A stretch of DNA of 64,000 nucleotides from the NCBI RefSeq assembly GCF_029227915.1, contig NC_079875.1, positions 27,650,001 through 27,714,000 on the forward strand. The letters are read 5' to 3'. The first letter of the stretch is position 1, and each line of letters starts with the position of its first letter. The position numbers and the translations under genes are program-made. Under the pieces are notes generated by a model. The model did no database searches, was not told where the DNA came from, and saw nothing but the letters and a program-made list of their open reading frames with translations. The stretch comes from Hydractinia symbiolongicarpus. Its lineage: Eukaryota > Cnidaria > Hydrozoa > Anthoathecata > Hydractiniidae. Positions 27,401 through 64,000 of the stretch are shown one piece after another.

Positions 27401-28953
27401 AAAATAAGTTTTCAACCAATAAACCATTAAATTGGCGTTAAATGGAAAAGTTACTGAGCACAAAAAAAGATTTGGTTTTATAAAATCTAATCTTTTAAAT
27501 TTAATGATTTTCTGAATAAATGAAGAATTTCCTATAATTTTCTCTAATTATAACCAGTGCATCACAATGTAACCTTTGTAAACCAAAATTAACTGTCAGG
27601 TAATTTTACCATGAAGTTAATTTTTCATTTTTTCACTTCAACAATTCATAATTTTCAACATTTAGGTAAATCGATGACAGTATATTTTAGCAGCAAAAAA
27701 AAACATGAAAATTTTATTAACCTGAACTAACATTTGCTGAAAATATACCGGCATTTGTATTAAATTTAAATTAGAAATGCTGCAATGTAAAAAATATATG
27801 AGTAATGATGGAATACATACGAACTTCTCCAATACTTTTGTCTAAAAATAAAATAGCATCAATTTATTACTAAAAATATCATACCGTACAACTTTCTAGT
27901 GGACTTCAACTACACTGTATTCCAATAAAAAAAATGTGCAATGTCTTTATAGCATAATTATAACGGTAATAGTCTAAGCATTTCTTATATTAAATCAGGT
28001 GCTATCTATATCTCCTCCTCACAATTTAAAATCTTCAAAAACAAAAATGTACATAGGTGAATCTTTATTATATCGCAATAAAGATTCACCTATGTATATG
28101 CACCATCCAGATAAACTATCTAACATATTGCCGTAGTGTGGTGTAGTGGTTTTGTCTTTGGCTCCCAACTCTAGATTCCGGAGTTCGAATCCCACTCGCT
28201 GCCTGGCAGTATGTTAGTGATGAACAAAATAGTTCTTCTTCATTATAACAAAAATGTATATGGGAGAATTCTAACATACCAGTGTTTCAGTTTTGTCATT
28301 TCTAAAAAATAAACATAGAAATATTACAACAAAATTATCTTTAAAGAACTAAATAAGTTACTTTAATTTCGACTAAAAAAGCATTGTTTACGTCGTTTAC
28401 AGCAAATCTCATGTGAATGACACCATAAAAACACCAATTTTTCATAGTTTCGTTTGTAATATTTTATCACTTTTTGTAATATTTGAAAACAATAATTACC
28501 TAAAATTAATTTTTAATGGAAAAGTTGTTTCTTCATTACTACCATTCAAAATGGAACACTAAAAAATGAATAGTAAGTTTAAAATTTTTAAGTATTATTA
28601 GTGGAATTACTGGACCTTCAATACGTACTGTTTCACTGTCAGAACTGCTGAAATCAGGGACAATTTCAATTTCCTGAAACATAAATATTTATCATCAATA
28701 CAATTAAAAATTATACTTTAAACGGAATCATGAATTGCATACATACTGGATAAGTAATTTTTACATCATCGTCACTACAATCCAGCTTGGCAAAATCTAT
28801 GTCCTTGTAGTAGTCTGCAAATTTATCTCCACCAATGACATTCTTTTTATTTACACCACTGCCAATATTTTCCTGAATCTTTTTTTTTGATTGGTAAGTA
28901 CTGTTCTTGTACGTATTTACACCTGAAAATCTTGCTCGAGGTTGTGACTTCAT
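21497..28953 (-). CDS. Crypton-like tyrosine recombinase gene B, 17 exons
   Basis: Exons (minus strand, GT..AG borders read by eye): 28953-28747, 28673-28629, 27841-27821, 26996-26952, 26882-26826, 26704-26600, 26440-25993, 25289-24114, 23688-23626, 23394-23332, 23245-23159, 23062-23030, 22652-22614, 22425-22381, 22073-21998, 21891-21793, 21642-21497 (TAA 21499-21497). The sum is about 917 aa. Order of domains: basic N-terminus (MKSQPRARFSG), acidic linkers, zinc-finger exon, recombinase catalytic exon, six small linker exons including a nuclear-localisation-like RSKKRKKY, then SSVKWTSELNKVFFEKFG and a Lys-rich end, a SANT-like tail. Exons before 26440 join in phase 0 and those after 25993 in phase 1. 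Only 22381 to 22073 does not fit, so a small exon is missed or there is an indel. The protein should act in the nucleus on DNA; it may be an active Crypton or a domesticated gene. Confidence 0.7.
24114..25289 (-). CDS. Gene B exon 8: tyrosine recombinase catalytic domain
   Basis: The exon encodes 392 residues without a stop. The N-terminal half is the helical core-binding region. Catalytic motifs: LTLLNGRRGGETSRL (box I Arg, about 24680), YMTGKGNHHLVSV (Lys, about 24510), TTNRHRVSTLYAAL (box II His/Arg, about 24285), and FYAHMGHSESMNKDIYQAP with the second His and the nucleophilic Tyr (about 24230-24175). The complete set suggests an active or conserved enzyme, unlike gene A. The acceptor TAATAG at 25290 joins phase 1 to exon 7; the donor is GTATGT at 24113. 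Without splicing the frame would run on to a stop at 24070. Confidence 0.85.
25993..26440 (-). CDS. Gene B exon 7: zinc-finger exon
   Basis: The acceptor TTTCAG at 26441 opens KKSPYKKPYR, then MCIYC, SRHIKKCH, a C2H2 finger (CxxC ... HxxxxH). Later CNLCFAFISKRFFASHKRTC is a second finger of C2HC type. The exon ends SDQFKEVILAKLRDDPVG at a GTAAGT donor (phase 1), which joins NICRKDEM of exon 8. In cnidarian recombinase genes this finger pair regularly precedes the catalytic domain. Confidence 0.8.
28050..28096. repeat. Perfect 20-bp inverted repeat (hairpin)
   Basis: Arms 28050-28069 (TACATAGGTGAATCTTTATT) and 28077-28096 are exact reverse complements, with a 7-nt loop ATATCGC. It lies in an intron of gene B, next to a tRNA-derived sequence. 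Confidence 0.9.
28132..28205 (+). repeat. tRNA-derived SINE-like head
   Basis: It has an A-box-like TGGTGTAGTGG and a B-box-like GAGTTCGAATCCC at tRNA spacing. The acceptor-like ends GTAGTG and CGCTGC can pair with G-T wobbles, but the T-stem is mostly unpaired, so it is not a working tRNA. Sense orientation is opposite to gene B and intronic. The element's 3' end was not defined. Confidence 0.55.
28747..28953 (-). CDS. Gene B exon 1, start inside tRNA-array sequence
   Basis: 69 codons, MKSQPRARFSG to DVKITYP, ending at a GTATGT donor in phase 0. The first 29 nt of the exon (28953-28925) are the reverse complement of the spacer that follows tRNA-Trp in the array units (GAAAATCTTGCT(C/T)(C/G)A and onward). 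The rest of the exon is unique. The ATG therefore sits in repeat-derived DNA, and the gene's promoter should lie in the first array unit. The start is the first ATG of an open frame with a good donor; an upstream non-coding exon cannot be excluded. Confidence 0.65.
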
Positions 28954-29061
28954 TATTGCGTACTAAGGCTTTTTTTATATCCTTAGAGACAACGAAGACA
29001 GTCCCCATTTTTCCAAAGCCATTCCTAATAAAACATTGTGACATGTTGCATGTGTCATGGA

Positions 29062-29133
29062 GGCTCAATGGTCTAGTGGCATGATTCACGCTTTGGGTGC
29101 GAGAGGTCCCGGGTTCAAATCCCGGTTGAGCCC
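29062..29133 (+). tRNA. tRNA-Pro-TGG: tRNA-Pro(TGG)
   Basis: First Pro copy of the array, 110 bp upstream of the gene B start codon on the opposite strand. The anticodon stem reads CACGC instead of CTCGC, giving an A-A mismatch at 28/42; otherwise consensus. Confidence 0.85.
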
Positions 29134-29214
29134 ATTATTAAAGTGTAACTAATGTTAAAGATAGGGACTGTCTTCTTCGTCTCTATGGATATAATAAAAT
29201 GCAAGGGACATAGA

Positions 29215-29270
29215 GGCTCAATGGTCTAGTGGCATGATTCTTGCTTTAGGTTCAAATCCCGGTTGAGCCC
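29215..29270 (+). pseudogene. 56-nt deleted tRNA-Pro
   Basis: Short form; described at 32738. Confidence 0.85.
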
Positions 29271-29517
29271 ATTGTTGGAGTGTAACTAATGTTGTCAGTG
29301 CAATTTCCGCTTGTTTCATTTTTTACAAAGACACTCGAAATAGCACATCCTTAATGCTATTTACTGAAGAGAACAAACCAAACTCGACTGAATCGCCAGT
29401 CTTGCCCTGAAGTTAAGAGTACTTCCTTATTGTAGGTGTTATCACATGCGCCTAACATCCCTAACGTGCCTTTTGGATTCGGGTCAGGCACACATGTAGT
29501 AATAACTTAACTACTCT

Positions 29518-29528
29518 GGGTCAGAAAA
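29518..29528. other. Scar of a deleted tRNA-Trp
   Basis: ACTCTGGGTC runs straight into AGAAAAAACAG. In other units about 26 bp of spacer and the Trp gene lie between them; the last bases of Trp (GTCA) form the joint, suggesting a microhomology deletion. Confidence 0.8.
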
Positions 29529-29723
29529 AACAGTATCAAAACATGGTTACAAAATAATAGTTCTTGAGTTAAGTAATTGTAAGAAGAAAATCTTGCTACA
29601 GGTTGTGACTTCATTATTGCGTACTGAGGCTTTTTTTTATGTCCTTAGAGACAACGAAGACAGTCCCTATTTTTCCAAATCCATTCTTAATAGAACATTG
29701 TGACATGTTGCATGTGACATGGA

Positions 29724-29795
29724 GGCTCAATGGTCTAGTGGCATGATTCTCGCTTTGGGTGCGAGAGGTCCCGGGTTCAAATCTCGGTTGAGCCC
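29724..29795 (+). tRNA. tRNA-Pro-TGG: tRNA-Pro(TGG)
   Basis: T-stem 3' strand CTCGG (G-T wobble at 52/62). Confidence 0.9.
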
Positions 29796-29876
29796 TTTAT
29801 TAAAGAGTAACTAATGTTAAAGATAGGGACTGTCTTCTTCGTCTCTATGGATATAATAAAATGCAAGGGACATAGA

Positions 29877-29932
29877 GGCTCAATGGTCTAGTGGCATGAT
29901 TCTTGCTTTAGGTTCAAATCCCGGTTGAGCCC
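29877..29932 (+). pseudogene. 56-nt deleted tRNA-Pro
   Basis: Short form, consensus. Confidence 0.85.
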
Positions 29933-30211
29933 ATTGTTGGAGTGTAACTAATGTTGTCAGTGCAATTTCCGCTTGTTTCATTTTTTACAAAGACACTCGA
30001 AATAGCTCATCCTTAATGCTCTTTACTGCAGAGAACAAACCAAACTCGACTGAATCGCAAGTCTTGCCTTGAAGTTAAGAGTACTTACTTATTGTAGGTG
30101 TTATCACATGCGCCTAACATCCCTAACTTGCCTTTTGGATTCGGGTCAGGCACACATGTAGTAATAACTTAACTACTCTGGGTCCCAGTCTTACGCAGTT
30201 GTATAGCTACG

Positions 30212-30283
30212 GACTCTGTGGCGCAATGGTAGCGCGTCTGACTCCAGATCAGAAGGTTGCGTGTTCAATTCACGTCAGAGTCA
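30212..30283 (+). tRNA. tRNA-Trp-CCA: tRNA-Trp(CCA), reference copy
   Basis: 72 nt. The acceptor stem GACTCTG/CAGAGTC pairs fully, with discriminator A. The D-arm is GCGC-AATGGTA-GCGC with GG in the loop. The anticodon stem-loop is TCTGA-CTCCAGA-TCAGA with CCA at 34-36. The T-arm is GCGTG-TTCAATT-CACGT. It matches the metazoan tRNA-Trp sequence closely. Internal A box (TGGCGCAATGG) and B box (GTGTTCAATTC) are present. It is followed by GAAAAAACAG; the first run of four or more T is TTTTTTT about 107 nt downstream (30391-30397), so the trailer would be long. Confidence 0.95.
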
Positions 30284-30390
30284 GAAAAAACAGTATTAAA
30301 ACATGGTTACAAAATAATAGTTCTTGAGTTAAGTAATTGTAAGAAGAAAATCTTGCTTCAGGTTGTGACTTCATTATTGCGTACTGAGGC

Positions 30391-30397
30391 TTTTTTT
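30391..30397 (+). terminator. Pol III-type T-run after tRNA-Trp
   Basis: The run GGCTTTTTTTA is the first T-run of four or more after the Trp gene at 30212. An equivalent run of six to eight T occurs in every unit just before the inverted-repeat left arm. Confidence 0.6.
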
Positions 30398-30614
30398 ATA
30401 TCCTTAGAGACAACGAAGACAGTCCCCATTTTTCCAAAGCCATTCCTAAGAGAACATTGTGACATGTTGCATGTGACATGGAGGCTCAATGGTCTAGTGG
30501 CATGATTCTCGCTTTGGGTGCGAGAGGTCCCGGGTTCAAATCTCGGTTGAGCCCTTTATTAAAGAGTTACTAATGTTAAAGATAGGGACTGTCTTCTTCG
30601 TCTCTATGGATATA
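30397..30614. repeat. Imperfect inverted repeat around tRNA-Pro (representative unit)
   Basis: The left arm (about 30397-30430, TATCCTTAGAGACAACGAAG and onward to CAGTCCC) is nearly the reverse complement of the right arm (about 30582-30614, GGGACTGTCTTCTTCGTCTC to GGATATA). The pair encloses tRNA-Pro. It recurs in all units with little change. Confidence 0.85.
30483..30554 (+). tRNA. tRNA-Pro-TGG: tRNA-Pro(TGG)
   Basis: T-stem CTCGG wobble variant. Confidence 0.9.
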
Positions 30615-30635
30615 ATAAAATGCAAGGGACATAGA

Positions 30636-30719
30636 GGCTCAATGGTCTAGTCTGTGGCGCAATGGTAGCGCGTCTGACTCCAGATCAGAAGGTTGCGTGT
30701 TCAATTCACGTCAGAGTCA
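30636..30719 (+). pseudogene. Chimera of tRNA-Pro 5' end and tRNA-Trp
   Basis: GGCTCAATGGTCTAG of the short Pro form (30636-30650) is fused to Trp from its fourth base. The Trp-like part 30648-30719 is 72 nt but its first three bases are TAG instead of GAC, so two acceptor pairs (1-72 and 3-70) are lost. The crossover lies between GGTCTAG and GACTCTG. A full Trp gene follows 175 bp on. Confidence 0.9.
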
Positions 30720-30822
30720 GAAAAAACAGTATTAAAACATGGTTACAAAATAATGGTTCTTGAGTGAAGTAGTTGTAAGAAGAAAATCTTGCTCCACGCT
30801 GTGACTGTTGTGAATGGCTACG

Positions 30823-30894
30823 GACTCTGTGGCGCAATGGTAGCGCGTCTGACTCCAGATCAGAAGGTTGCGTGTTCAATTCACGTCAGAGTCA
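30823..30894 (+). tRNA. tRNA-Trp-CCA: tRNA-Trp(CCA)
   Basis: Consensus; second member of a 175-bp Trp doublet. Confidence 0.93.
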
Positions 30895-31094
30895 GAAAAA
30901 ACAGTATTAAAACATGGTTACAAAATAATGGTTCTTGAGTGAAGTAATTGTAAGAAGAAAATCTTGCTCCAGGTTGTGACTTCATTATTGCGTACTGAGG
31001 CTTTTTTTTATATCCTTAGAGACAACGAAGACAGTCCCTATTTTTCCAAAGCCATTCTTAATAGAACATTGTGACATGTTGCATGTGACATGGA

Positions 31095-31130
31095 GGCTCA
31101 ATGGTCTAGTGGCAAATCCCGGTTGAGCCC
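31095..31130 (+). pseudogene. tRNA-Pro with 36-nt deletion
   Basis: GGCTCAATGGTCTAGTGGC joins AAATCCCGGTTGAGCCC. The whole anticodon arm, the variable loop and the T-stem 5' strand are lost, along with most of the B box. This is a unique event in the array. Confidence 0.9.
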
Positions 31131-31211
31131 AATATTAAAGTGTAACTAATGTTAAAGATAGGGACTGTCTTCTTCGTCTCTATGGATATAATAAAATTCA
31201 CGGGACATAGA

Positions 31212-31267
31212 GGCTCAATGGTCTAGTGGCATGATTCTTGCTTTAGGTTCAAATCCCGGTTGAGCCC
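31212..31267 (+). pseudogene. 56-nt deleted tRNA-Pro
   Basis: Short form, consensus. Confidence 0.85.
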
Positions 31268-31547
31268 ATTGTTGGAGTGTAACTAATGTTGTCAGTGCAA
31301 TTTCCGCTTGTTTCATTTTTTACAAAGACACTCGAAATAGCTCATCCTTAATGCTCTTTACTGCAGAGAACAAACCAAACTCGTCTGAATCGCAAGTCTT
31401 GCCCTGAAGTTAAGAGTACTTCCTTATTTTAGGTGTTATCACATGCGCCTAACATCCCTAACGTGCCTTTTGGATTCGGGTCAGGTACACATGTAGTAAT
31501 AACTTAAACTACTCTGGGTCCCAGTCTTACGCAGTTGTATAGCTACG

Positions 31548-31624
31548 GACTCTGTGGCGCAATAACTCTGTAGCGCGTCTGACTCCAGATCAGAAGGTTG
31601 CGTGTTCAATTCACGTCAGAGTCA
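31548..31624 (+). tRNA. tRNA-Trp-CCA: tRNA-Trp(CCA) with D-loop insertion
   Basis: 77 nt. GG of the D-loop is replaced by AACTCTG, which repeats bases from the gene's own 5' end; G18-G19, needed for D-loop/T-loop contact, are lost. Probably non-functional. Confidence 0.8.
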
Positions 31625-31825
31625 GAAAAAACAGTATTAAAACATGGTTACAAAATAATAGTTCTTAAGTTAAGTAATTGTAAGAAGAAAATCTTGCTTC
31701 AGGTTGTGACTTCATTATTGCGTACTGAGGCTTTTTTTTATGTCCTTAGAGACAACGAAGACAGTCCCTATTTTTTCCAAATCCATTCTTAATAGAACAT
31801 TGTGACATGTTGCATGTGACATGGA

Positions 31826-31897
31826 GGCTCAATGGTCTAGTGGCATGATTCTCGCTTTGGGTGCGAGAGGTCCCGGGTTCAAATCTCGGTTGAGCCC
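31826..31897 (+). tRNA. tRNA-Pro-TGG: tRNA-Pro(TGG)
   Basis: T-stem CTCGG wobble variant. Confidence 0.9.
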
Positions 31898-31978
31898 TTT
31901 ATTAAAGAGTAACTAATGTTAAAGATAGGGACTGTCTTCTTCGTCTCTATGGATATAATAAAATGCAAGGGACATAGA

Positions 31979-32034
31979 GGCTCAATGGTCTAGTGGCATG
32001 ATTTTTGCTTTAGGTTCAAATCCCGGTTGAGCCC
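31979..32034 (+). pseudogene. 56-nt deleted tRNA-Pro, internal T5
   Basis: GATTTTTGC replaces GATTCTTGC, creating a run of five T that could stop Pol III inside the copy. Confidence 0.85.
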
Positions 32035-32313
32035 ATTGTTGGAGTGTAACTAATGTTGTCAGTGCAATTTCCGCTTGTTTCATTTTTTACAAAGACACTC
32101 GAAATAGCACATCCTTAATGCTATTTATTGAAGAGAACAAACCAAACTCGACTGAATCGCAAGTCTTGCCTTGAAGTTAAGAGTACTTACTTATTGTAGG
32201 TGTTATCACATGCGCCTAACATCCCTAACGTGCCTTTTGGATTCGGGTCAGGCACACATGTAGTAATAACTTAACTACTCTGGGTCCCAGTCTTACGCAG
32301 TTGTATAGCTACG

Positions 32314-32385
32314 GACTCTGTGGCGCAATGGTAGCTCGTCTGACTCCAGATCAGAAGGTTGCGTGTTCAATTCACGTCAGAGTCA
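32314..32385 (+). tRNA. tRNA-Trp-CCA: tRNA-Trp(CCA)
   Basis: GTAGCTCG instead of GTAGCGCG: one D-stem pair is lost. Confidence 0.88.
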
Positions 32386-32584
32386 GAAAAAACAGTATTA
32401 AAACATGGTTACAAAATAATAGTTCTTGAGTTAAGTAATTGTAAGAAGAAAATCTTGCTTCAGGTTGTGACTTCATTATTGCGTACTGAGGCTTTTTTTA
32501 TATCCTTAGAGACAACGAAGACAGTCCCCATTTTTCCAAAGCCATTCCTAAGAGAACATTGTGACATGTTGCATGTGACATGGA

Positions 32585-32656
32585 GGCTCAATGGTCTAGT
32601 GGCATGATTCTCGCTTTGGGTGCGAGAGGTCCCGGGTTCAAATCCCGGTTGAGCCC
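32585..32656 (+). tRNA. tRNA-Pro-TGG: tRNA-Pro(TGG), reference copy
   Basis: 72 nt. The acceptor GGCTCAA/TTGAGCC pairs fully; discriminator C, as in eukaryotic tRNA-Pro. The anticodon arm is CTCGC-TTTGGGT-GCGAG with TGG at 34-36. The T-arm is CCGGG-TTCAAAT-CCCGG. It matches metazoan tRNA-Pro closely. A box TGGTCTAGTGG and B box GGTTCAAATCC are intact. No T-run of four or more separates it from the 56-nt copy that starts 153 bp downstream. Confidence 0.95.
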
Positions 32657-32737
32657 TTTATTAAAGAGTTACTAATGTTAAAGATAGGGACTGTCTTCTT
32701 CGTCTCTATGGATATAATAAAATGCAAGGGACATAGA

Positions 32738-32793
32738 GGCTCAATGGTCTAGTGGCATGATTCTTGCTTTAGGTTCAAATCCCGGTTGAGCCC
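32738..32793 (+). pseudogene. 56-nt deleted tRNA-Pro, reference copy
   Basis: Identical to tRNA-Pro through the D-arm, then GATTCTTGCTTTAGGTTCAAATCC. A net 16 nt are missing, from the anticodon's last two bases through the anticodon 3' strand, variable loop and most of the T-stem 5' strand. The acceptor stem, D-arm, T-loop and both Pol III boxes are kept. The form is present in almost every unit and ends with CATTGTTGGAGTGTAAC. The next T-run is ATTTTTTAC, about 57 nt downstream. It cannot decode, but could be transcribed. Confidence 0.9.
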
Positions 32794-33072
32794 ATTGTTG
32801 GAGTGTAACTAATGTTGTCAGTGCAATTTCCGCTTGTTTCATTTTTTACAAAGACACTCGAAATAGCACATCCTTAATGCTATTTACTGAAGAGAACAAA
32901 CCAAACTCGACTGAATCGCAAGTCTTGCCCTGAAGTTAAGAGTACTTCCTTATTGTAGGTGTTATAACATGCGCCTAACATCCCTAACGTGCCTTTTGGA
33001 TTCGGGTCAGGCACACATGTAGTAATAACTTAACTACTCTGGGTCCCAGTCTTACGCAGTTGTATAGCCACG

Positions 33073-33144
33073 GACTCTGTGGCGCAATGGTAGCGCGTCT
33101 GACTCCAGATCAGAAGGTTGCGTGTTCAATTCACGTCAGAGTCA
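33073..33144 (+). tRNA. tRNA-Trp-CCA: tRNA-Trp(CCA)
   Basis: Consensus. Confidence 0.93.
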
Positions 33145-33345
33145 GAAAAAACAGTATTAAAACATGGTTACAAAATAATAGTTCTTAAGTTAAGTAATTG
33201 TAAGAAGAAAATCTTGCTTCAGGTTGTGACTTCATTATTGCGTACTGAGGCTTTTTTTTATGTCCTTAGAGACAACGAAGACAGTCCCTATTTTTTCCAA
33301 ATCCATTCTTAATAGAACATTGTGACATGTTGCATGTGACATGGA

Positions 33346-33417
33346 GGCTCAATGGTCTAGTGGCATGATTCTCGCTTTGGGTGCGAGAGGTCCCGGGTTC
33401 AAATCTCGGTTGAGCCC
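33346..33417 (+). tRNA. tRNA-Pro-TGG: tRNA-Pro(TGG)
   Basis: T-stem CTCGG wobble variant. Confidence 0.9.
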
Positions 33418-33498
33418 TTTATTAAAGAGTAACTAATGTTAAAGATAGGGACTGTCTTCTTCGTCTCTATGGATATAATAAAATGCAAGGGACATAGA

Positions 33499-33554
33499 GG
33501 CTCAATGGTCTAGTGGCATGATTTTTGCTTTAGGTTCAAATCCCGGTTGAGCCC
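33499..33554 (+). pseudogene. 56-nt deleted tRNA-Pro, internal T5
   Basis: Same GATTTTTGC change as 31979. Confidence 0.85.
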
Positions 33555-33833
33555 ATTGTTGGAGTGTAACTAATGTTGTCAGTGCAATTTCCGCTTGTTT
33601 CATTTTTTACAAAGACACTCGAAATAGCACATCCTTAATGCTATTTATTGAAGAGAACAAACCAAACTCGACTGAATCGCAAGTCTTGCCTTGAAGTTAA
33701 GAGTACTTACTTATTGTAGGTGTTATCACATGCGCCTAACATCCCTAACGTGCCTTTTGGATTCGGGTCAGGCACACATGTAGTAATAACTTAACTACTC
33801 TGGGTCCCAGTCTTACGCAGTTGTATAGCTACG

Positions 33834-33905
33834 GACTCTGTGGCGCAATGGTAGCTCGTCTGACTCCAGATCAGAAGGTTGCGTGTTCAATTCACGTCAG
33901 AGTCA
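33834..33905 (+). tRNA. tRNA-Trp-CCA: tRNA-Trp(CCA)
   Basis: D-stem change GTAGCTCG, as at 32314. Confidence 0.88.
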
Positions 33906-34592: not shown

Positions 34593-34664
34593 GACTCTGT
34601 GGCGCAATGGTAGCGCGTCTGACTCCAGATCAGAAGGTTGCGTGTTCAATTCACGTCAGAGTTA
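34593..34664 (+). tRNA. tRNA-Trp-CCA: tRNA-Trp(CCA)
   Basis: 3' end GTTA: first acceptor pair becomes G-T. First of a Trp doublet. Confidence 0.9.
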
Positions 34665-34767
34665 GAAAAAACAGTATTAAAACATGGTTACAAAATAATG
34701 GTTCTTGAGTGAAGTAGTTGTAAGAAGAAAATCTTGCTCCACGCTGTGACTGTTGTGAATGGCTACG

Positions 34768-34839
34768 GACTCTGTGGCGCAATGGTAGCGCGTCTGACTC
34801 CAGATCAGAAGGTTGCGTGTTCAATTCACGTCAGAGTCA
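34768..34839 (+). tRNA. tRNA-Trp-CCA: tRNA-Trp(CCA)
   Basis: Consensus; second of the doublet. Confidence 0.93.
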
Positions 34840-53567: not shown

Positions 53568-53639
53568 GGCTCAATGGTCTAGTGGCATGATTCTCGCTTT
53601 GAGTGCGAGAGGTCCCGGGTTCAAATTCCGGTTGAGCCC
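53568..53639 (+). tRNA. tRNA-Pro body with anticodon TGA
   Basis: 72 nt with Pro-type acceptor, D-arm and discriminator C. The loop reads TTTGAGT, so the anticodon is TGA (Ser UCA) instead of TGG. The T-stem 3' strand is TCCGG, giving a G-T pair at 53/61 and a weaker B box. It lacks the long variable arm needed for seryl-tRNA synthetase. The spacer after it is also diverged (TCGGCGTCTCTCAGTATC). It is either a drifting pseudogene or a decoding variant. Confidence 0.85.
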
Positions 53640-54535: not shown

Positions 54536-54815
54536 ATTGTTGGAGTGTAACTAATGTTGTCAGTGCAATTTCCGCTCGTTTCATTTTTTACAAAGACACT
54601 CGAAATAGCACATCCTTAATGCTATTTACTGCAGAGAACAAACCAAACTCGTCTGAATCGCAAGTCTTGCCCTGAAGTTAAGAGTACTTCCTTATTTTAG
54701 GTGTTATCACATGCGCCTAACATCCCTAACGTGCCTTTTGGATTCGGGTCAGGTACACATGTAGTAATAACTTAAACTACTCTGGGTCCCAGTCTTACGC
54801 AGTTGTATAGCTACG

Positions 54816-54887
54816 GACTCTGTGGCGCAATGGTAGCGCGTCTGACTCCAGATCAGAAGGTTGCGTGTTCAATTCACGTCAGAGTCA
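54816..54887 (+). tRNA. tRNA-Trp-CCA: tRNA-Trp(CCA)
   Basis: Consensus. Confidence 0.93.
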
Positions 54888-55087
54888 GAAAAAACAGTAT
54901 TAAAACAAGGTTACAAAATAATAGTTCTTGAGTTAAGTAATTGTAAGAAGAAAATCTTGCTTCAGGTTGTGACTTCATTATTGCGTACTGAGGCTTTTTT
55001 TTATATCCTTAGAGACAACGAAGACAGTCCCTATTTTTCCAAATCCATTCTTAATAGAACATTGTGATATGTTGCATATGACATGGA

Positions 55088-55159
55088 GGCTCAATGGTCT
55101 AGTGGCATGATTCTCGCTTTGGGTGCGAGAGGTCCCGGGTTCAAATCCCGGTTGAGCCC
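55088..55159 (+). tRNA. tRNA-Pro-TGG: tRNA-Pro(TGG)
   Basis: Consensus. Confidence 0.93.
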
Positions 55160-55240
55160 ATTATTAAAGTGTAACTAATGTTAAAGATAGGGACTGTCTT
55201 CTTCGTCTCTATGGATATAATAAAATGCACGGGACATAGA

Positions 55241-55296
55241 GGCTCAATGGTCTAGTGGCATGATTCTTGCTTTAGGTTCAAATCCCAGTGAAGCCC
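55241..55296 (+). pseudogene. 56-nt deleted tRNA-Pro
   Basis: CCCAGTGAAGCCC end. Confidence 0.85.
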
Positions 55297-55576
55297 ATTG
55301 TTGGAGTGTAACTAATGTTGTCAGTGCAATTTCCGCTTGTTTCATTTTTTACAAAGACACTCGAAATAGCTCATCCTTAATGCTCTTTACTGCAGAGAAC
55401 AAACCAAACTCGTCTGAATCGCAAGTCTTGCCCTGAAGTTAAGAGTACTTCCTTATTTTAGGTGTTATCACATGCGCCTAACATCCCTAACGTGCCTTTT
55501 GGATTCGGGTCAGGTACACATGTAGTAATAACTTAAACTACTCTGGGTCCCAGTCTTACGCAGTTGTATAGCTACG

Positions 55577-55648
55577 GACTCTGTGGCGCAATGGTAGCGC
55601 GTCTGACTCCAGATCAGAAGGTTGCGTGTTCAATTCACGTCAGAGTCA
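55577..55648 (+). tRNA. tRNA-Trp-CCA: tRNA-Trp(CCA)
   Basis: Consensus. Confidence 0.93.
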
Positions 55649-55847
55649 GAAAAAACAGTATTAAAACAAGGTTACAAAATAATAGTTCTTGAGTTAAGTA
55701 ATTGTAAGAAGAAAATCTTGCTTCAGGTTGTGACTTCATTATTGCGTACTGAGGCTTTTTTTATATCCTTAGAGACAACGAAGACAGTCCCTATTTTTCC
55801 AAATCCATTCTTAATAGAACATTGTGATATGTTGCATATGACATGGA

Positions 55848-55919
55848 GGCTCAATGGTCTAGTGGCATGATTCTCGCTTTGGGTGCGAGAGGTCCCGGGT
55901 TCAAATCCCGGTTGAGCCC
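55848..55919 (+). tRNA. tRNA-Pro-TGG: tRNA-Pro(TGG)
   Basis: Consensus. Confidence 0.93.
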
Positions 55920-56000
55920 ATTATTAAAGTGTAACTAATGTTAAAGATAGGGACTGTCTTCTTCGTCTCTATGGATATAATAAAATGCACGGGACATAGA

Positions 56001-56056
56001 GGCTCAATGGTCTAGTGGCATGATTCTTGCTTTAGGTTCAAATCCCAGTGAAGCCC
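56001..56056 (+). pseudogene. 56-nt deleted tRNA-Pro
   Basis: CCCAGTGAAGCCC end. Confidence 0.85.
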
Positions 56057-56336
56057 ATTGTTGGAGTGTAACTAATGTTGTCAGTGCAATTTCCGCTTGT
56101 TTCATTTTTTAGAAAGACACTCGAAATAGCACATCCTTAATGCTATTTACTGCAGAGAACAAACCAAACTAGACTGAATCGCAAGTCTTGCCCTGAAGTT
56201 AAGAGTACTTCCTTATTGTAGGTGTTATCACATGCGCCTAACATCCCTAACGTGCCTTTTGGATTCGGGTCAGGTACACATGTAGTAATAACTTAAACTA
56301 CTCTGGGTCCCAGTCTTACGCAGTTGTATAGCTACG

Positions 56337-56408
56337 GACTCTGTGGCGCAATGGTAGCGCGTCTGACTCCAGATCAAAAGGTTGCGTGTTCAATTCACGT
56401 CAGAGTCA
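56337..56408 (+). tRNA. tRNA-Trp-CCA: tRNA-Trp(CCA)
   Basis: TCAAAAGG anticodon-stem mismatch. Confidence 0.88.
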
Positions 56409-56607
56409 GACAAAACAGTATTAAAACATGGTTACAAAATAATGGTTCTTGAGTGAAGTAATTGTAAGAAGAAAATCTTGCTCCAGGTTGTGACTTCATT
56501 ATTGCGTACTGAGGCTTTTTTTATATCCTTAGAGACAACGAAGACAGTCCCTATTTTTCCAAAGCCAATCTTAATAGAATATTGTGACATGTTGCATGTG
56601 ACATGGA

Positions 56608-56679
56608 GGCTCAATGGTCTAGTGGCATGATTCTCGCTTTGGGTGTGAGAGGTCCCGGGTTCAAATCCCGGTTGAGCCC
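56608..56679 (+). tRNA. tRNA-Pro-TGG: tRNA-Pro(TGG)
   Basis: Anticodon stem GTGAG wobble. Confidence 0.9.
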
Positions 56680-56759
56680 ATTACTAAAGTGTAACTAATG
56701 TTAAAGATAGGGACTGTCTTCTCGTCTCTATGGATATAATAAAATGCACGGGACATAGA

Positions 56760-56815
56760 GGCTCAATGGTCTAGTGGCATGATTCTTGCTTTAGGTTCAA
56801 ATCCCGGTTGAGCCC
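56760..56815 (+). pseudogene. 56-nt deleted tRNA-Pro
   Basis: Short form, consensus. Confidence 0.85.
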
Positions 56816-57095
56816 ATTGTTGGAGTGCAACTAATGTTGTCAGTGCAATTTCCGCTTGTTTCATTTTTTAGAAAGACACTCGAAATAGCACATCCTTAAT
56901 GCTATTTACTGCAGAGAACAAACCAAACTAGACTGAATCGCAAGTCTTGCCCTGAAGTTAAGAGTACTTCCTTATTGTAGGTGTTATCACATGCGCCTAA
57001 CATCCCTAACGTGCCTTTTGGATTCGGGTCAGGTACACATGTAGTAATAACTTAAACTACTCTGGGTCCCAGTCTTACGCAGTTGTATAGCTACG

Positions 57096-57167
57096 GACTC
57101 TGTGGCGCAATGGTAGCGCGTCTGACTCCAGATCAAAAGGTTGCGTGTTCAATTCACGTCAGAGTCA
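57096..57167 (+). tRNA. tRNA-Trp-CCA: tRNA-Trp(CCA)
   Basis: TCAAAAGG anticodon-stem mismatch. Confidence 0.88.
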
Positions 57168-57366
57168 GACAAAACAGTATTAAAACATGGTTACAAAATA
57201 ATGGTTCTTGAGTGAAGTAATTGTAAGAAGAAAATTTTGCTCCAGGTTGTGACTTCATTATTGCGTACTGAGGCTTTTTTTATATCCTTAGAGACAACGA
57301 AGACAGTCCCTATTTTTCCAAAGCTATTCTTAATAGAATATTGTGACATGTTGCATGTGACATGGA

Positions 57367-57438
57367 GGCTCAATGGTCTAGTGGCATGATTCTCGCTTTG
57401 GGTGTGAGAGGTCCCGGGTTCAAATCCCGGTTGAGCCC
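57367..57438 (+). tRNA. tRNA-Pro-TGG: tRNA-Pro(TGG)
   Basis: Anticodon stem GTGAG wobble. Confidence 0.9.
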
Positions 57439-57518
57439 ATTACTAAAGTGTAACTAATGTTAAAGATAGGGACTGTCTTCTCGTCTCTATGGATATAATA
57501 AAATGCACGGGACATAGA

Positions 57519-57574
57519 GGCTCAATGGTCTAGTGGCATGATTCTTGCTTTAGGTTCAAATCCCGGTTGAGCCC
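57519..57574 (+). pseudogene. 56-nt deleted tRNA-Pro
   Basis: Short form, consensus. Confidence 0.85.
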
Positions 57575-57854
57575 ATTGTTGGAGTGCAACTAATGTTGTC
57601 AGTGCAATTTTCGCTTGTTTCATTTTTTACAAAGACACTCGAAATAGCACATCCTTAATGCTATTTACTGCAGAGAACAAACCAAAGTAGACTGAATCGC
57701 AAGTCTTCCCCTGAAGTTAAGAGTACTTCCTTATTGTAGATGTTATCACATGCGCCTAACATCCCTTACGTGCATTTTGGATTCGGGTCAGGCACACATG
57801 TAGTAATAACTTAAACTACTCTGGGTCCCAGTCTTACGCAGTTGTATAGCTACG

Positions 57855-57926
57855 GACTCTGTGGCGCAATGGTAGCGCGTCTGACTCCAGATCAGAAGGT
57901 TGCGTGTTCAATTCACGTCAGAGTCA
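57855..57926 (+). tRNA. tRNA-Trp-CCA: tRNA-Trp(CCA)
   Basis: Consensus. Confidence 0.93.
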
Positions 57927-58125
57927 GAAAAAACAGTATTAAAACAAGGTTACAAAATAATAGTTCTTGAGTTAAGTAATTGTAAGAAGAAAATCTTGCT
58001 TCAGGTTGTGACTTCATTATTGCGATTGAGGCTTTTTTTTATATCCTTAGAGACAACGAAGACAGTCCCTATTTTTCCAAATCCATTCTTAATAGAACAT
58101 TGTGATATGTTGCATATGACATGGA

Positions 58126-58197
58126 GGCTCAATGGTCTAGTGGCATGATTCTCGCTTTGGGTGCGTGAGGTCCCGGGTTCAAATCCCGGTTGAGCCC
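58126..58197 (+). tRNA. tRNA-Pro-TGG: tRNA-Pro(TGG)
   Basis: GCGTG anticodon-stem variant. Confidence 0.87.
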
Positions 58198-58278
58198 ATT
58201 ATTAAAGTGTAACTAATGTTAAAGATAGGGACTGTCTTCTTCGTCTCTATGGATATAATAAAATGCACGGGACATAGA

Positions 58279-58334
58279 GGCTCAATGGTCTAGTGGCATG
58301 ATTCTTGCTTTAGGTTCAAATCCCAGTGGAGCCC
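58279..58334 (+). pseudogene. 56-nt deleted tRNA-Pro
   Basis: CCCAGTGGAGCCC end. Confidence 0.85.
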
Positions 58335-58614
58335 ATTGTTGGAGTGTAACTAATGTTGTCAGTGCAATTTCCGCTTGTTTCATTTTTTAGAAAGACACTC
58401 GAAATAGCACATCCTTAATGCTATTTACTGCAGAGAACAAACCAAACTAGACTGAATCGCAAGTCTTGCCCTGAAGTTAAGAGTACTTCCTTATTATAGG
58501 TGTTATCACATGCGCCTAACATCCCTAACGTGCCTTTTGGATTTGGGTCAGGTACACATGTAGTAATAACTTAAACTACTCTGGGTCCCAGTCTTACGCA
58601 GTTGTATAGCTACG

Positions 58615-58686
58615 GACTCTGTGGCGCAATGGTAGCGCGTCTGACTCCAGATCAGAAGGTTGCGTGTTCAATTCACGTCAGAGTCA
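58615..58686 (+). tRNA. tRNA-Trp-CCA: tRNA-Trp(CCA)
   Basis: Consensus. Confidence 0.93.
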
Positions 58687-58885
58687 GAAAAAACAGTATT
58701 AAAACATGGTTACAAAATAATGGTTCTTGAGTGAAGTAATTGTAAGAAGAAAATCTTGCTCCAGGTTGTGACTTCATTATTGCGTACTGAGGCTTTTTTT
58801 ATATCCTTAGAGACAACGAAGACAGTCCCTATTTTTCCAAAGCCATTCTTAATAGAATATTGTGACATGTTGCATGTGACATGGA

Positions 58886-58957
58886 GGCTCAATGGTCTAG
58901 TGGCATGATTCTCGCTTTGGGTGCGAGAGGTCCCGGGTTCAAATCCCGGTTGAGCCC
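58886..58957 (+). tRNA. tRNA-Pro-TGG: tRNA-Pro(TGG)
   Basis: Consensus. Confidence 0.93.
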
Positions 58958-59037
58958 ATTATTAAAGTGTAACTAATGTTAAAGATAGGGACTGTCTTCT
59001 CGTCTCTATGGATATAATAAAATGCACGGGACATAGA

Positions 59038-59093
59038 GGCTCAATGGTCTAGTGGCATGATTCTTGCTTCAGGTTCAAATCCCGGTTGAGCCC
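59038..59093 (+). pseudogene. 56-nt deleted tRNA-Pro
   Basis: GCTTCAGG variant. Confidence 0.85.
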
Positions 59094-59373
59094 ATTGTTG
59101 GAGTGTAACTAATGTTGTCAGTGCAATTTCCGCTTGTTTCATTTTTTAGAAAGACACTCGAAATAGCACATCCTTAATGCTATTTACTGCAGAGAACAAA
59201 CCAAAGTAGACTGAATCGCAAGTCTTCCCCTGAAGTTAAGAGTACTTCCTTATTGTAGATGTTATCACATGCGCCTAACATCCCTTACGTGCATTTTGGA
59301 TTCGGGTCAGGCACACATGTAGTAATAACTTAAACTACTCTGGGTCCCAGTCTTACGCAGTTGTATAGCTACG

Positions 59374-59445
59374 GACTCTGTGGCGCAATGGTAGCGCGTC
59401 TGACTCCAGATCAGAAGGTTGCGTGTTCAATTCACGTCAGAGTCA
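59374..59445 (+). tRNA. tRNA-Trp-CCA: tRNA-Trp(CCA)
   Basis: Consensus. Confidence 0.93.
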
Positions 59446-59644
59446 GAAAAAACAGTATTAAAACAAGGTTACAAAATAATAGTTCTTGAGTTAAGTAATT
59501 GTAAGAAGAAAATCTTGCTTCAGGTTGTGACTTCATTATTGCGATTGAGGCTTTTTTTTATATCCTTAGAGACAACGAAGACAGTCCCTATTTTTCCAAA
59601 TCCATTCTTAATAGAACATTGTGATATGTTGCATATGACATGGA

Positions 59645-59716
59645 GGCTCAATGGTCTAGTGGCATGATTCTCGCTTTGGGTGCGTGAGGTCCCGGGTTCA
59701 AATCCCGGTTGAGCCC
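59645..59716 (+). tRNA. tRNA-Pro-TGG: tRNA-Pro(TGG)
   Basis: GCGTG anticodon-stem variant. Confidence 0.87.
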
Positions 59717-59797
59717 ATTATTAAAGTGTAACTAATGTTAAAGATAGGGACTGTCTTCTTCGTCTCTATGGATATAATAAAATGCACGGGACATAGA

Positions 59798-59853
59798 GGC
59801 TCAATGGTCTAGTGGCATGATTCTTGCTTTAGGTTCAAATCCCAGTGGAGCCC
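59798..59853 (+). pseudogene. 56-nt deleted tRNA-Pro
   Basis: CCCAGTGGAGCCC end. Confidence 0.85.
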
Positions 59854-60133
59854 ATTGTTGGAGTGTAACTAATGTTGTCAGTGCAATTTCCGCTTGTTTC
59901 ATTTTTTAGAAAGACACTCGAAATAGCACATCCTTAATGCTATTTACTGCAGAGAACAAACCAAACTAGACTGAATCGCAAGTCTTCCCCTGAAGTTAAG
60001 AGTACTTCCTTATTGTAGATGTTATCACATGCGCCTAACATCCCTTACGTGCATTTTGGATTCGGGTCAGGCACACATGTAGTAATAACTTAAACTACTC
60101 TGGGTCCCAGTCTTACGCAGTTGTATAGCTACG

Positions 60134-60205
60134 GACTCTGTGGCGCAATGGTAGCGCGTCTGACTCCAGATCAGAAGGTTGCGTGTTCAATTCACGTCAG
60201 AGTCA
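60134..60205 (+). tRNA. tRNA-Trp-CCA: tRNA-Trp(CCA)
   Basis: Consensus. Confidence 0.93.
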
Positions 60206-60405
60206 GAAAAAACAGTATTAAAACAAGGTTACAAAATAATAGTTCTTGAGTTAAGTAATTGTAAGAAGAAAATCTTGCTTCAGGTTGTGACTTCATTATT
60301 GCGTACTGAGGCTTTTTTTTATATCCTTAGAGACAACGAAGACAGTCCCTATTTTTCCAAATCCATTCTTAATAGAACATTGTGATATGTTGCATATGAC
60401 ATGGA

Positions 60406-60477
60406 GGCTCAATGGTCTAGTGGCATGATTCTCGCTTTGGGTGCGAGAGGTCCCGGGTTCAAATCCCGGTTGAGCCC
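60406..60477 (+). tRNA. tRNA-Pro-TGG: tRNA-Pro(TGG)
   Basis: Consensus. Confidence 0.93.
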
Positions 60478-60558
60478 ATTATTAAAGTGTAACTAATGTT
60501 AAAGATAGGGACTGTCTTCTTCGTCTCTATGGATATAATAAAATGCACGGGACATAGA

Positions 60559-60614
60559 GGCTCAATGGTCTAGTGGCATGATTCTTGCTTTAGGTTCAAA
60601 TCCCAGTGAAGCCC
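60559..60614 (+). pseudogene. 56-nt deleted tRNA-Pro
   Basis: CCCAGTGAAGCCC end. Confidence 0.85.
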
Positions 60615-60894
60615 ATTGTTGGAGTGTAACTAATGTTGTCAGTGCAATTTCCGCTTGTTTCATTTTTTACAAAGACACTCGAAATAGCTCATCCTTAATG
60701 CTCTTTACTGCAGAGAACAAACCAAACTCGTCTGAATCGCAAGTCTTGCCCTGAAGTTAAGAGTACTTCCTTATTTTAGGTGTTATCACATGCGCCTAAC
60801 ATCCCTAACGTGCCTTTTGGATTCGGGTCAGGTACACATGTAGTAATAACTTAAACTACTCTGGGTCCCAGTCTTACGCAGTTGTATAGCTACG

Positions 60895-60966
60895 GACTCT
60901 GTGGCGCAATGGTAGCGCGTCTGACTCCAGATCAGAAGGTTGCGTGTTCAATTCACGTCAGAGTCA
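60895..60966 (+). tRNA. tRNA-Trp-CCA: tRNA-Trp(CCA)
   Basis: Consensus. Confidence 0.93.
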
Positions 60967-61165
60967 GAAAAAACAGTATTAAAACAAGGTTACAAAATAA
61001 TAGTTCTTGAGTTAAGTAATTGTAAGAAGAAAATCTTGCTTCAGGTTGTGACTTCATTATTGCGTACTGAGGCTTTTTTTATATCCTTAGAGACAACGAA
61101 GACAGTCCCTATTTTTCCAAATCCATTCTTAATAGAACATTGTGATATGTTGCATATGACATGGA

Positions 61166-61237
61166 GGCTCAATGGTCTAGTGGCATGATTCTCGCTTTGG
61201 GTGCGAGAGGTCCCGGGTTCAAATCCCGGTTGAGCCC
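61166..61237 (+). tRNA. tRNA-Pro-TGG: tRNA-Pro(TGG)
   Basis: Consensus. Confidence 0.93.
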
Positions 61238-61318
61238 ATTATTAAAGTGTAACTAATGTTAAAGATAGGGACTGTCTTCTTCGTCTCTATGGATATAATA
61301 AAATGCACGGGACATAGA

Positions 61319-61374
61319 GGCTCAATGGTCTAGTGGCATGATTCTTGCTTTAGGTTCAAATCCCAGTGAAGCCC
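61319..61374 (+). pseudogene. 56-nt deleted tRNA-Pro
   Basis: CCCAGTGAAGCCC end. Confidence 0.85.
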
Positions 61375-61654
61375 ATTGTTGGAGTGTAACTAATGTTGTC
61401 AGTGCAATTTCCGCTTGTTTCATTTTTTAGAAAGACACTCGAAATAGCACATCCTTAATGCTATTTACTGCAGAGAACAAACCAAACTAGACTGAATCGC
61501 AAGTCTTGCCCTGAAGTTAAGAGTACTTCCTTATTGTAGGTGTTATCACATGCGCCTAACATCCCTAACGTGCCTTTTGGATTCGGGTCAGGTACACATG
61601 TAGTAATAACTTAAACTACTCTGGGTCCCAGTCTTACGCAGTTGTATAGCTACG

Positions 61655-61726
61655 GACTCTGTGGCGCAATGGTAGCGCGTCTGACTCCAGATCAAAAGGT
61701 TGCGTGTTCAATTCACGTCAGAGTCA
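61655..61726 (+). tRNA. tRNA-Trp-CCA: tRNA-Trp(CCA)
   Basis: TCAAAAGG anticodon-stem mismatch. Confidence 0.88.
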
Positions 61727-61925
61727 GACAAAACAGTATTAAAACATGGTTACAAAATAATGGTTCTTGAGTGAAGTAATTGTAAGAAGAAAATCTTGCT
61801 CCAGGTTGTGACTTCATTATTGCGTACTGAGGCTTTTTTTATATCCTTAGAGACAACGAAGACAGTCCCTATTTTTCCAAAGCCAATCTTAATAGAATAT
61901 TGTGACATGTTGCATGTGACATGGA

Positions 61926-61997
61926 GGCTCAATGGTCTAGTGGCATGATTCTCGCTTTGGGTGTGAGAGGTCCCGGGTTCAAATCCCGGTTGAGCCC
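61926..61997 (+). tRNA. tRNA-Pro-TGG: tRNA-Pro(TGG)
   Basis: Anticodon stem GTGAG wobble. Confidence 0.9.
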
Positions 61998-62077
61998 ATT
62001 ACTAAAGTGTAACTAATGTTAAAGATAGGGACTGTCTTCTCGTCTCTATGGATATAATAAAATGCACGGGACATAGA

Positions 62078-62133
62078 GGCTCAATGGTCTAGTGGCATGA
62101 TTCTTGCTTTAGGTTCAAATCCCGGTTGAGCCC
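62078..62133 (+). pseudogene. 56-nt deleted tRNA-Pro
   Basis: Short form, consensus. Confidence 0.85.
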
Positions 62134-62413
62134 ATTGTTGGAGTGCAACTAATGTTGTCAGTGCAATTTCCGCTTGTTTCATTTTTTAGAAAGACACTCG
62201 AAATAGCACATCCTTAATGCTATTTACTGCAGAGAACAAACCAAACTAGACTGAATCGCAAGTCTTGCCCTGAAGTTAAGAGTACTTCCTTATTGTAGGT
62301 GTTATCACATGCGCCTAACATCCCTAACGTGCCTTTTGGATTCGGGTCAGGTACACATGTAGTAATAACTTAAACTACTCTGGGTCCCAGTCTTACGCAG
62401 TTGTATAGCTACG

Positions 62414-62485
62414 GACTCTGTGGCGCAATGGTAGCGCGTCTGACTCCAGATCAAAAGGTTGCGTGTTCAATTCACGTCAGAGTCA
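62414..62485 (+). tRNA. tRNA-Trp-CCA: tRNA-Trp(CCA)
   Basis: TCAAAAGG anticodon-stem mismatch. Confidence 0.88.
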
Positions 62486-62684
62486 GACAAAACAGTATTA
62501 AAACATGGTTACAAAATAATGGTTCTTGAGTGAAGTAATTGTAAGAAGAAAATTTTGCTCCAGGTTGTGACTTCATTATTGCGTACTGAGGCTTTTTTTA
62601 TATCCTTAGAGACAACGAAGACAGTCCCTATTTTTCCAAAGCTATTCTTAATAGAATATTGTGACATGTTGCATGTGACATGGA

Positions 62685-62756
62685 GGCTCAATGGTCTAGT
62701 GGCATGATTCTCGCTTTGGGTGTGAGAGGTCCCGGGTTCAAATCCCGGTTGAGCCC
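62685..62756 (+). tRNA. tRNA-Pro-TGG: tRNA-Pro(TGG)
   Basis: Anticodon stem GTGAG wobble. Confidence 0.9.
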
Positions 62757-62836
62757 ATTACTAAAGTGTAACTAATGTTAAAGATAGGGACTGTCTTCTC
62801 GTCTCTATGGATATAATAAAATGCACGGGACATAGA

Positions 62837-62892
62837 GGCTCAATGGTCTAGTGGCATGATTCTTGCTTTAGGTTCAAATCCCGGTTGAGCCC
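62837..62892 (+). pseudogene. 56-nt deleted tRNA-Pro
   Basis: Short form, consensus. Confidence 0.85.
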
Positions 62893-63172
62893 ATTGTTGG
62901 AGTGCAACTAATGTTGTCAGTGCAATTTTCGCTTGTTTCATTTTTTACAAAGACACTCGAAATAGCACATCCTTAATGCTATTTACTGCAGAGAACAAAC
63001 CAAAGTAGACTGAATCGCAAGTCTTCCCCTGAAGTTAAGAGTACTTCCTTATTGTAGATGTTATCACATGCGCCTAACATCCCTTACGTGCATTTTGGAT
63101 TCGGGTCAGGCACACATGTAGTAATAACTTAAACTACTCTGGGTCCCAGTCTTACGCAGTTGTATAGCTACG

Positions 63173-63244
63173 GACTCTGTGGCGCAATGGTAGCGCGTCT
63201 GACTCCAGATCAGAAGGTTGCGTGTTCAATTCACGTCAGAGTCA
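63173..63244 (+). tRNA. tRNA-Trp-CCA: tRNA-Trp(CCA)
   Basis: Consensus. Confidence 0.93.
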
Positions 63245-63443
63245 GAAAAAACAGTATTAAAACAAGGTTACAAAATAATAGTTCTTGAGTTAAGTAATTG
63301 TAAGAAGAAAATCTTGCTTCAGGTTGTGACTTCATTATTGCGATTGAGGCTTTTTTTTATATCCTTAGAGACAACGAAGACAGTCCCTATTTTTCCAAAT
63401 CCATTCTTAATAGAACATTGTGATATGTTGCATATGACATGGA

Positions 63444-63515
63444 GGCTCAATGGTCTAGTGGCATGATTCTCGCTTTGGGTGCGTGAGGTCCCGGGTTCAA
63501 ATCCCGGTTGAGCCC
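63444..63515 (+). tRNA. tRNA-Pro-TGG: tRNA-Pro(TGG)
   Basis: GCGTG anticodon-stem variant. Confidence 0.87.
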
Positions 63516-63596
63516 ATTATTAAAGTGTAACTAATGTTAAAGATAGGGACTGTCTTCTTCGTCTCTATGGATATAATAAAATGCACGGGACATAGA

Positions 63597-63652
63597 GGCT
63601 CAATGGTCTAGTGGCATGATTCTTGCTTTAGGTTCAAATCCCAGTGGAGCCC
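63597..63652 (+). pseudogene. 56-nt deleted tRNA-Pro
   Basis: CCCAGTGGAGCCC end. Confidence 0.85.
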
Positions 63653-63932
63653 ATTGTTGGAGTGTAACTAATGTTGTCAGTGCAATTTCCGCTTGTTTCA
63701 TTTTTTAGAAAGACACTCGAAATAGCACATCCTTAATGCTATTTACTGCAGAGAACAAACCAAACTAGACTGAATCGCAAGTCTTGCCCTGAAGTTAAGA
63801 GTACTTCCTTATTATAGGTGTTATCACATGCGCCTAACATCCCTAACGTGCCTTTTGGATTTGGGTCAGGTACACATGTAGTAATAACTTAAACTACTCT
63901 GGGTCCCAGTCTTACGCAGTTGTATAGCTACG

Positions 63933-64000
63933 GACTCTGTGGCGCAATGGTAGCGCGTCTGACTCCAGATCAGAAGGTTGCGTGTTCAATTCACGTCAGA
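63933..64000 (+). tRNA. tRNA-Trp-CCA: tRNA-Trp(CCA), cut by window end
   Basis: Consensus through base 68; the last four bases lie beyond the window. Confidence 0.9.

Follow-up and report, generated by a model that had tools for sequence, protein, structure and literature searches.

The window analysed here is a stretch of 64,000 nucleotides from contig NC_079875.1 of the hydrozoan Hydractinia symbiolongicarpus. Its right-hand part, positions 28925 to 64000, is occupied by a tandem array of tRNA-Trp genes, tRNA-Pro genes and a shortened Pro-like gene (pseudo-Pro), which was delimited with ARAGORN, Rfam and similarity to a unit consensus. The array is a genuine feature of this genome. ARAGORN called 96 tRNA genes in the window, all on the plus strand from position 29062 to the window end, comprising 51 Trp(CCA) genes, the last of which crosses the window edge, 44 Pro(TGG) genes and one gene labelled Ser(TGA) that has a Pro body (53568). 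Rfam at its gathering cut-off gave 96 tRNA matches at the identical loci. A first-pass annotation, made from the letters alone, had described 51 Trp and 46 Pro loci in units of about 760 bp; the Trp count and the unit length agree with our results, and the Pro count is probably reached by adding to the 44 called genes the Ser-labelled gene and a truncated Pro gene near 31092. The start that it gave, 28925, is exactly where similarity to the unit consensus begins, and it was right to suspect an animal-like genome.

The same annotation described the array as longer than 35 kb and still open. The array does end: when 200 kb were read rightward, its right edge was found near extended coordinate 152,714, corresponding to C1:27,802,714. 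The whole array thus spans approximately 124 kb and holds approximately 160 units (160 left arms, defined below), all in forward orientation. ARAGORN called 329 genes in it, namely 171 Trp-CCA, 128 Pro-TGG, 12 Pro-CGG, 17 "Ser-TGA" and one "Leu-CAA", and pseudo-Pro was matched 158 times. The contig that carries it, C1, is 42,572,105 bp long. According to the assembly paper (PMC10411563), a scaffold of this length is the largest in assembly HSymV2.0 (482,928,323 bases, 84 contigs), scaffolds are numbered by length, and chromosome 1 was inferred to be the most likely sex chromosome. C1 is probably that chromosome; the genome examined here (480,894,487 bases, 76 contigs) may be a release other than HSymV2.0.

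Each full unit, with a period of approximately 760 bp and a GC content of about 41%, holds both a Trp and a Pro gene. A spacer leads to Trp; about 121 bp separate Trp from the left arm of an inverted repeat and 57 bp separate that arm from Pro, 32 bp lie between Pro and the right arm and 27 bp between the right arm and pseudo-Pro, after which spacer resumes. In an example unit of 760 bp, measured from left arm to left arm (32505 to 33264, plus strand), both tRNA genes have the consensus form and were called by ARAGORN: tRNA-Pro(TGG) lies at 32585 to 32656 (Rfam, 58.9 bits) and tRNA-Trp(CCA) at 33073 to 33144 (71.2 bits). The 43-nt left arm (32493 to 32535) and the right arm (32680 to 32722), which flank the Pro gene, are 86% complementary. 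Pseudo-Pro, at 32738 to 32793, has 16 nt deleted in the middle of the gene and contains A-box and B-box motifs. It scored 25.5 bits here and 25.5 to 25.6 bits in the two copies examined, below the Rfam cut-off of 29 bits, which is why gene finders skip it. The statement that the array contains no other gene type therefore has to be withdrawn, since pseudo-Pro occurs in nearly every unit (44 copies in the window) and the gene with the TGA anticodon had also been overlooked. The period is interrupted by Trp-only insertions of 175 bp, exemplified by two consecutive Trp genes at 34593 to 34839 (plus strand), and by Pro-only insertions of 153 bp.

In 34 of the 44 units of the window, the inverted-repeat arms looked conserved, with variable sites numbering 0 of 24 and 1 of 39. 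The corresponding figures for the entire array were 5 of 24 and 13 of 39, and the arms were dropped as candidate conserved regulatory elements. The exact arm pattern had no matches in collections of viral contigs and general genome contigs, as expected for an animal genome. When two units were searched against Rfam for further noncoding RNAs in the spacer (E ≤ 5), only tRNA scored above the cut-off; the best match below it, an antisense mir-7360 (29.4 of 47 bits, E 0.0055), was rejected. Tandem Repeats Finder (TRF) reported no microsatellite-like arrays in the spacers.

Block duplication and divergence of the copies

Multi-unit blocks of up to 19.7 kb have been duplicated in the array. Shifted by 19,714 bp, exact repeats reach 11,801 bp, and a 19.5-kb stretch matches at 99.83% identity (33 differences). 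Further blocks recur at offsets of 5,318, 4,759, 2,280 and 6,264 bp. One of these is visible in the window, where an exact 3,928-bp repeat has its first copy at 54755 to 58682 and its second, 5,318 bp (7 units) downstream, at 60073 to 64000, both on the plus strand; continued past the window edge, the repeat reaches a total of 5,549 bp. Distinct sequences were found in 109 of the 159 units compared. Adjacent units diverge by 3.57% and all units by 4.30% on average, and the nearest relative of a unit is its neighbour in just 7 of 159 cases. Since closest relatives are so rarely adjacent, the array has grown by multi-unit blocks and not one unit at a time. The final 28 kb (125 to 153 kb) form a diverged subfamily, differing by 6.20% from the remaining array.

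Many copies are defective. Of the 172 Trp-type genes, 90 keep every stem pair, as do 124 of the 157 Pro-bodied genes, judged on stems and not on loop changes, while 82 Trp-type genes carry a stem mismatch or a D-loop insertion and 33 Pro-bodied genes a stem or D-loop defect. Among the former is a Trp variant with a 5-nt D-loop insertion (for example 31548 to 31624, plus strand), which occurs five times in the window and nine times in the whole array. Unchanged consensus genes number 66 for Trp and 71 for Pro. Stem-breaking variants have been amplified as well, with Trp G41A present in 28 copies and Pro A41T in 16.

Changes of the anticodon have also spread. The "Ser-TGA" genes, represented in the window by the gene at 53568 to 53639 (plus strand; tRNA-Ser according to ARAGORN), differ from the Pro consensus by G35A and C60T in 16 copies and by G40C in addition in one; 16 of these 17 genes keep every stem pair. 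The 12 Pro-CGG genes carry T33C relative to the Pro consensus, and the single "Leu-CAA" call has, in its printed form, a Trp body. Of the 17 TGA genes, 16 lie in the diverged subfamily at the right end, as does every one of the 12 CGG genes. The remolding of nuclear tRNA genes described in PMC4981973 is similar, with anticodons altered both within and between amino acids; shifts between amino acids are reported there to be mostly recent and probably non-functional. By analogy, the 17 TGA genes are probably, by default, recent shifts without function. They differ from the remolding cases presented there in that growth of the array has spread one changed gene to 17 copies.

To compare the genes with the surrounding sequence, diversity was determined in 127 of the 159 units (730 to 820 bp long; 32 omitted), 85 of them distinct. 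The share of variable sites was similar in Trp (18/72), Pro (18/71), pseudo-Pro (14/55) and the other sequence (146/500; Fisher P 0.49 to 0.64). Mean diversity was 0.023 in Trp, 0.020 in Pro, 0.034 in pseudo-Pro and 0.040 in the other sequence. None of 260 spacer windows was as low in diversity as Pro and 2.3% of 258 were as low as Trp, with the limit that windows overlap and copies are related. Changes that break a stem made up 10 of 25 in Trp (11.2 expected by chance) and 11 of 22 in Pro (9.0 expected). In our reading, the gene family is weakly constrained and an individual copy hardly at all.

Promoters, terminators and the state of the array

The array genes have internal A and B boxes, as functional genes of RNA polymerase III (Pol III) do: both motifs were present in 156 of 163 matched Trp genes, 135 of 157 Pro-bodied genes and 154 of 158 pseudo-Pro copies. 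The nearby terminator of such genes, a run of four T residues (T4), is missing, and none of the 329 array genes has one within 30 nt downstream. Trp genes lie a median of 107 nt from the first T4 run, Pro-TGG genes 185 nt and Pro-CGG genes 141 nt, and no T4 run lies between a Pro-bodied gene and its pseudo-Pro in any of 156 pairs (pseudo-Pro within 250 nt). In the example unit, the first runs of at least four T, which are distal candidate Pol III terminators, lie at 32842 to 32847, past both Pro and pseudo-Pro, and at 33252 to 33259, approximately 108 nt after the Trp gene (plus strand). Most array genes have a TTNTT or T3 motif within 60 nt, and such motifs may serve as weak terminators. In folds of the predicted long precursors, most pairs of the Trp cloverleaf were improbable, and the Pro acceptor pairs had probabilities of approximately 0.3 to 0.5.

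Other tRNA genes of the same genome provided a comparison. Of 49,105 tRNA candidates from a first look, 63 received scores; among those listed, all lie on contig C3, many of them about 1.3 kb apart. The eight loci taken from this contig (L001 to L008) belong to a second mixed tRNA array with units of approximately 1.3 kb and genes on both strands, whose contents include Ala, Asp, Lys, Ala, a 95-nt gene and Met, among others. A T4 run within 30 nt was found in 92 of 112 scorable calls from these loci, which partly overlap, so that some genes are counted twice; Lys was the exception, with a near run in 0 of 20. The Ala anticodons of this array differ among copies (TGC, AGC and CGC). Changes to Leu and Gln anticodons are not claimed for it, as the 95-nt gene was named otherwise once introns were allowed. 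In addition, a 23-nt pattern of the Trp anticodon arm had 253 exact matches genome-wide (131 plus, 122 minus), 124 within the Trp/Pro array and 129 outside it, the latter divided into 122 minus and 7 plus.

The explanation that we favour, and that is probably correct, is that this is a redundant nuclear tRNA array of approximately 160 units, one among many noncoding RNA arrays of the genome, maintained by unequal exchange, in which single copies are near-neutral and a subset is transcribed. In its favour are the uniform orientation of the units, the block duplications and the many distinct units, the near-chance variation of the genes, the number of copies with intact stems, the largely retained promoter boxes, the second mixed array on C3 and the tRNA arrays published for this species (PMC11067881). 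A Trp gene next to a locally duplicated Pro gene would have founded the cassette, and one of the Pro copies would then have lost 16 nt. The cassette may have expanded and been homogenised through unequal exchange of blocks of several units. Pol III would transcribe a subset of the intact copies from their internal A and B boxes, yielding redundant tRNA-Trp and tRNA-Pro, while the remaining copies would be free to decay. Transcripts are predicted to extend to the distal T runs, approximately 107 nt past Trp and 140 to 185 nt past Pro, in the latter case via pseudo-Pro, and to be trimmed afterwards. Three results weigh against this explanation: the absence of near T4 runs, which is unusual for working Pol III genes; the diversity of Trp and Pro below that of the spacer, which hints at some selection; and the Trp-pattern sites elsewhere in the genome, which mean that the array need not be the working source.

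The first and last of these results would also fit a silent satellite, that is, an amplified repeat that bears tRNA genes incidentally and is scarcely or not at all expressed, with the working Trp and Pro genes located elsewhere. The rate of defects in the Trp-type genes, which is about that of chance, and the fixation of a pseudogene in the unit point the same way. Nevertheless, we regard a silent satellite as unlikely, given that mean diversity in Trp and Pro is about half of that in the spacer and pseudo-Pro, that so many consensus copies are unchanged and that the promoter boxes are largely retained.

The roles suggested in the first-pass annotation were raised tRNA dosage, a chromatin boundary and selfish amplification. 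Neutral or selfish amplification fits best, in view of the chance-rate stem breaks and of a variable-site share in the genes like that of the spacer. These same two results, together with the amplification of stem-breaking variants, argue against selected dosage, in which demand for tRNA-Trp and tRNA-Pro(UGG) would keep the copy number high. The lower mean diversity of both genes and the many intact copies, including the Trp-type genes with all stems kept, speak for it, and we consider it improbable on balance. It is very improbable that the array is an active breeding ground for re-coded tRNAs. On that reading, the Pro-bodied gene with the UGA anticodon of Ser would be expressed and aminoacylated, serving as a remoulded decoder for Ser or else causing misreading, and double transcripts of Pro and pseudo-Pro would arise through the missing near terminators.

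An assembly artefact, in the form of an inflated copy number or of large block duplications, has in its favour that the 11.8-kb exact repeat is near the HiFi read N50 of 13.2 kb (PMC10411563), and for this reason the number of large blocks is uncertain. An artefact is nonetheless highly improbable as a whole, because most units are distinct; moreover, PMC11067881 argues otherwise for such arrays, citing an independent draft of H. echinata with tRNA arrays. A chromatin boundary or another structural role of a dense array of Pol III factors, proposed by analogy with the human 1q23.3 tRNA repeat that binds CTCF at a domain boundary (PMC4041453), is scarcely credible, as no conserved non-tRNA element is apparent, although no search aimed at CTCF sites or chromatin was made, and the arms vary over the whole array.

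Related arrays and the left flank

The array is of a kind already known for H. symbiolongicarpus, as tandem tRNA arrays covering all 20 amino acids were reported for this species and H. echinata in 2024 (PMC11067881). Like those noncoding RNA arrays, which are described as roughly even, with tens to hundreds of tRNA copies that resemble one another in sequence and spacer, the Trp/Pro array lies in a Hydractinia genome and consists of 160 units with a mean difference of 4.30%. The main text of that report, as far as it was covered, does not present this unit, its pseudogene, terminators, blocks or anticodon changes; its supplement may list the array. None of the portions of the literature covered mentioned the pseudogene, the terminators, the blocks or the amplified anticodon changes, although the searches were not aimed at each of them and absence from print is not implied.

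Similarities extend to more distant systems. The arrays of Entamoeba (PMC2652664) likewise consist of tandem units of several different tRNA genes with unclear function; there, nearly all tRNA genes are arrayed, in 25 unit types, and the authors find no clear pseudogene copies. The Hydractinia array shares the presence of more than one tRNA type per unit and differs in having a pseudogene fixed in the unit (158 pseudo-Pro), many defective copies and spacers in which TRF reported no microsatellite-like arrays. The tRNA gene clusters of Nematostella, also a cnidarian, and of teleosts (PMC2888827) are similarly large and heterogeneous, with fifty or more members, and the account of them states how large the clusters are but gives no repeated unit of this type. 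Human 1q23.3 has a multi-tRNA tandem unit of variable copy number, but that unit is 7.3 kb long, GC-rich, carries a CTCF site and is present in 9 to 43 copies (PMC4041453), as compared to about 160 units of 0.76 kb in Hydractinia. Plant cases of tRNA arrays have also been described (PMC12652284).

Such arrays allow the evolution of a multigene family to be followed within one chromosome, as copies arise by block duplication, individual copies decay and a pseudogene becomes fixed in the unit. Together, the amplified anticodon changes and the absence of near terminators bring two long-standing questions within experimental reach in a laboratory animal, namely what number of copies in a large tRNA array is used and how the cell handles many re-coded tRNA genes.

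A short way to the left of the array lies a tRNA-like sequence at 28139 to 28206, which was not called by ARAGORN or by Rfam at its cut-off and which may be the head of a short interspersed nuclear element. For a long open reading frame (ORF) at 24070 to 25317 (minus strand), 91 related proteins were found at E ≤ 0.001, and those with names come mainly from Hydra, Hydractinia and Holothuria. The ORF had no Pfam match above the cut-off; judging by sequence motifs, we take it to be a tyrosine-recombinase-like mobile gene. For an ORF at 12418 to 12966, a search for protein relatives found none. A gag-like ORF followed by pol-like pieces of a long terminal repeat retrotransposon lies at 6060 to 7930 (plus strand); the gag-like ORF shares 95% identity with an H. 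symbiolongicarpus protein across 84% of its length, and higher-scoring matches exist, for example one with 89% identity over 100%. Finally, a piece of a ubiquitin C-terminal hydrolase gene is located at 4492 to 4827 (minus strand; Pfam UCH, E 6.6e-08), and a 79-bp tandem repeat is present in three copies at 4234 to 4468.

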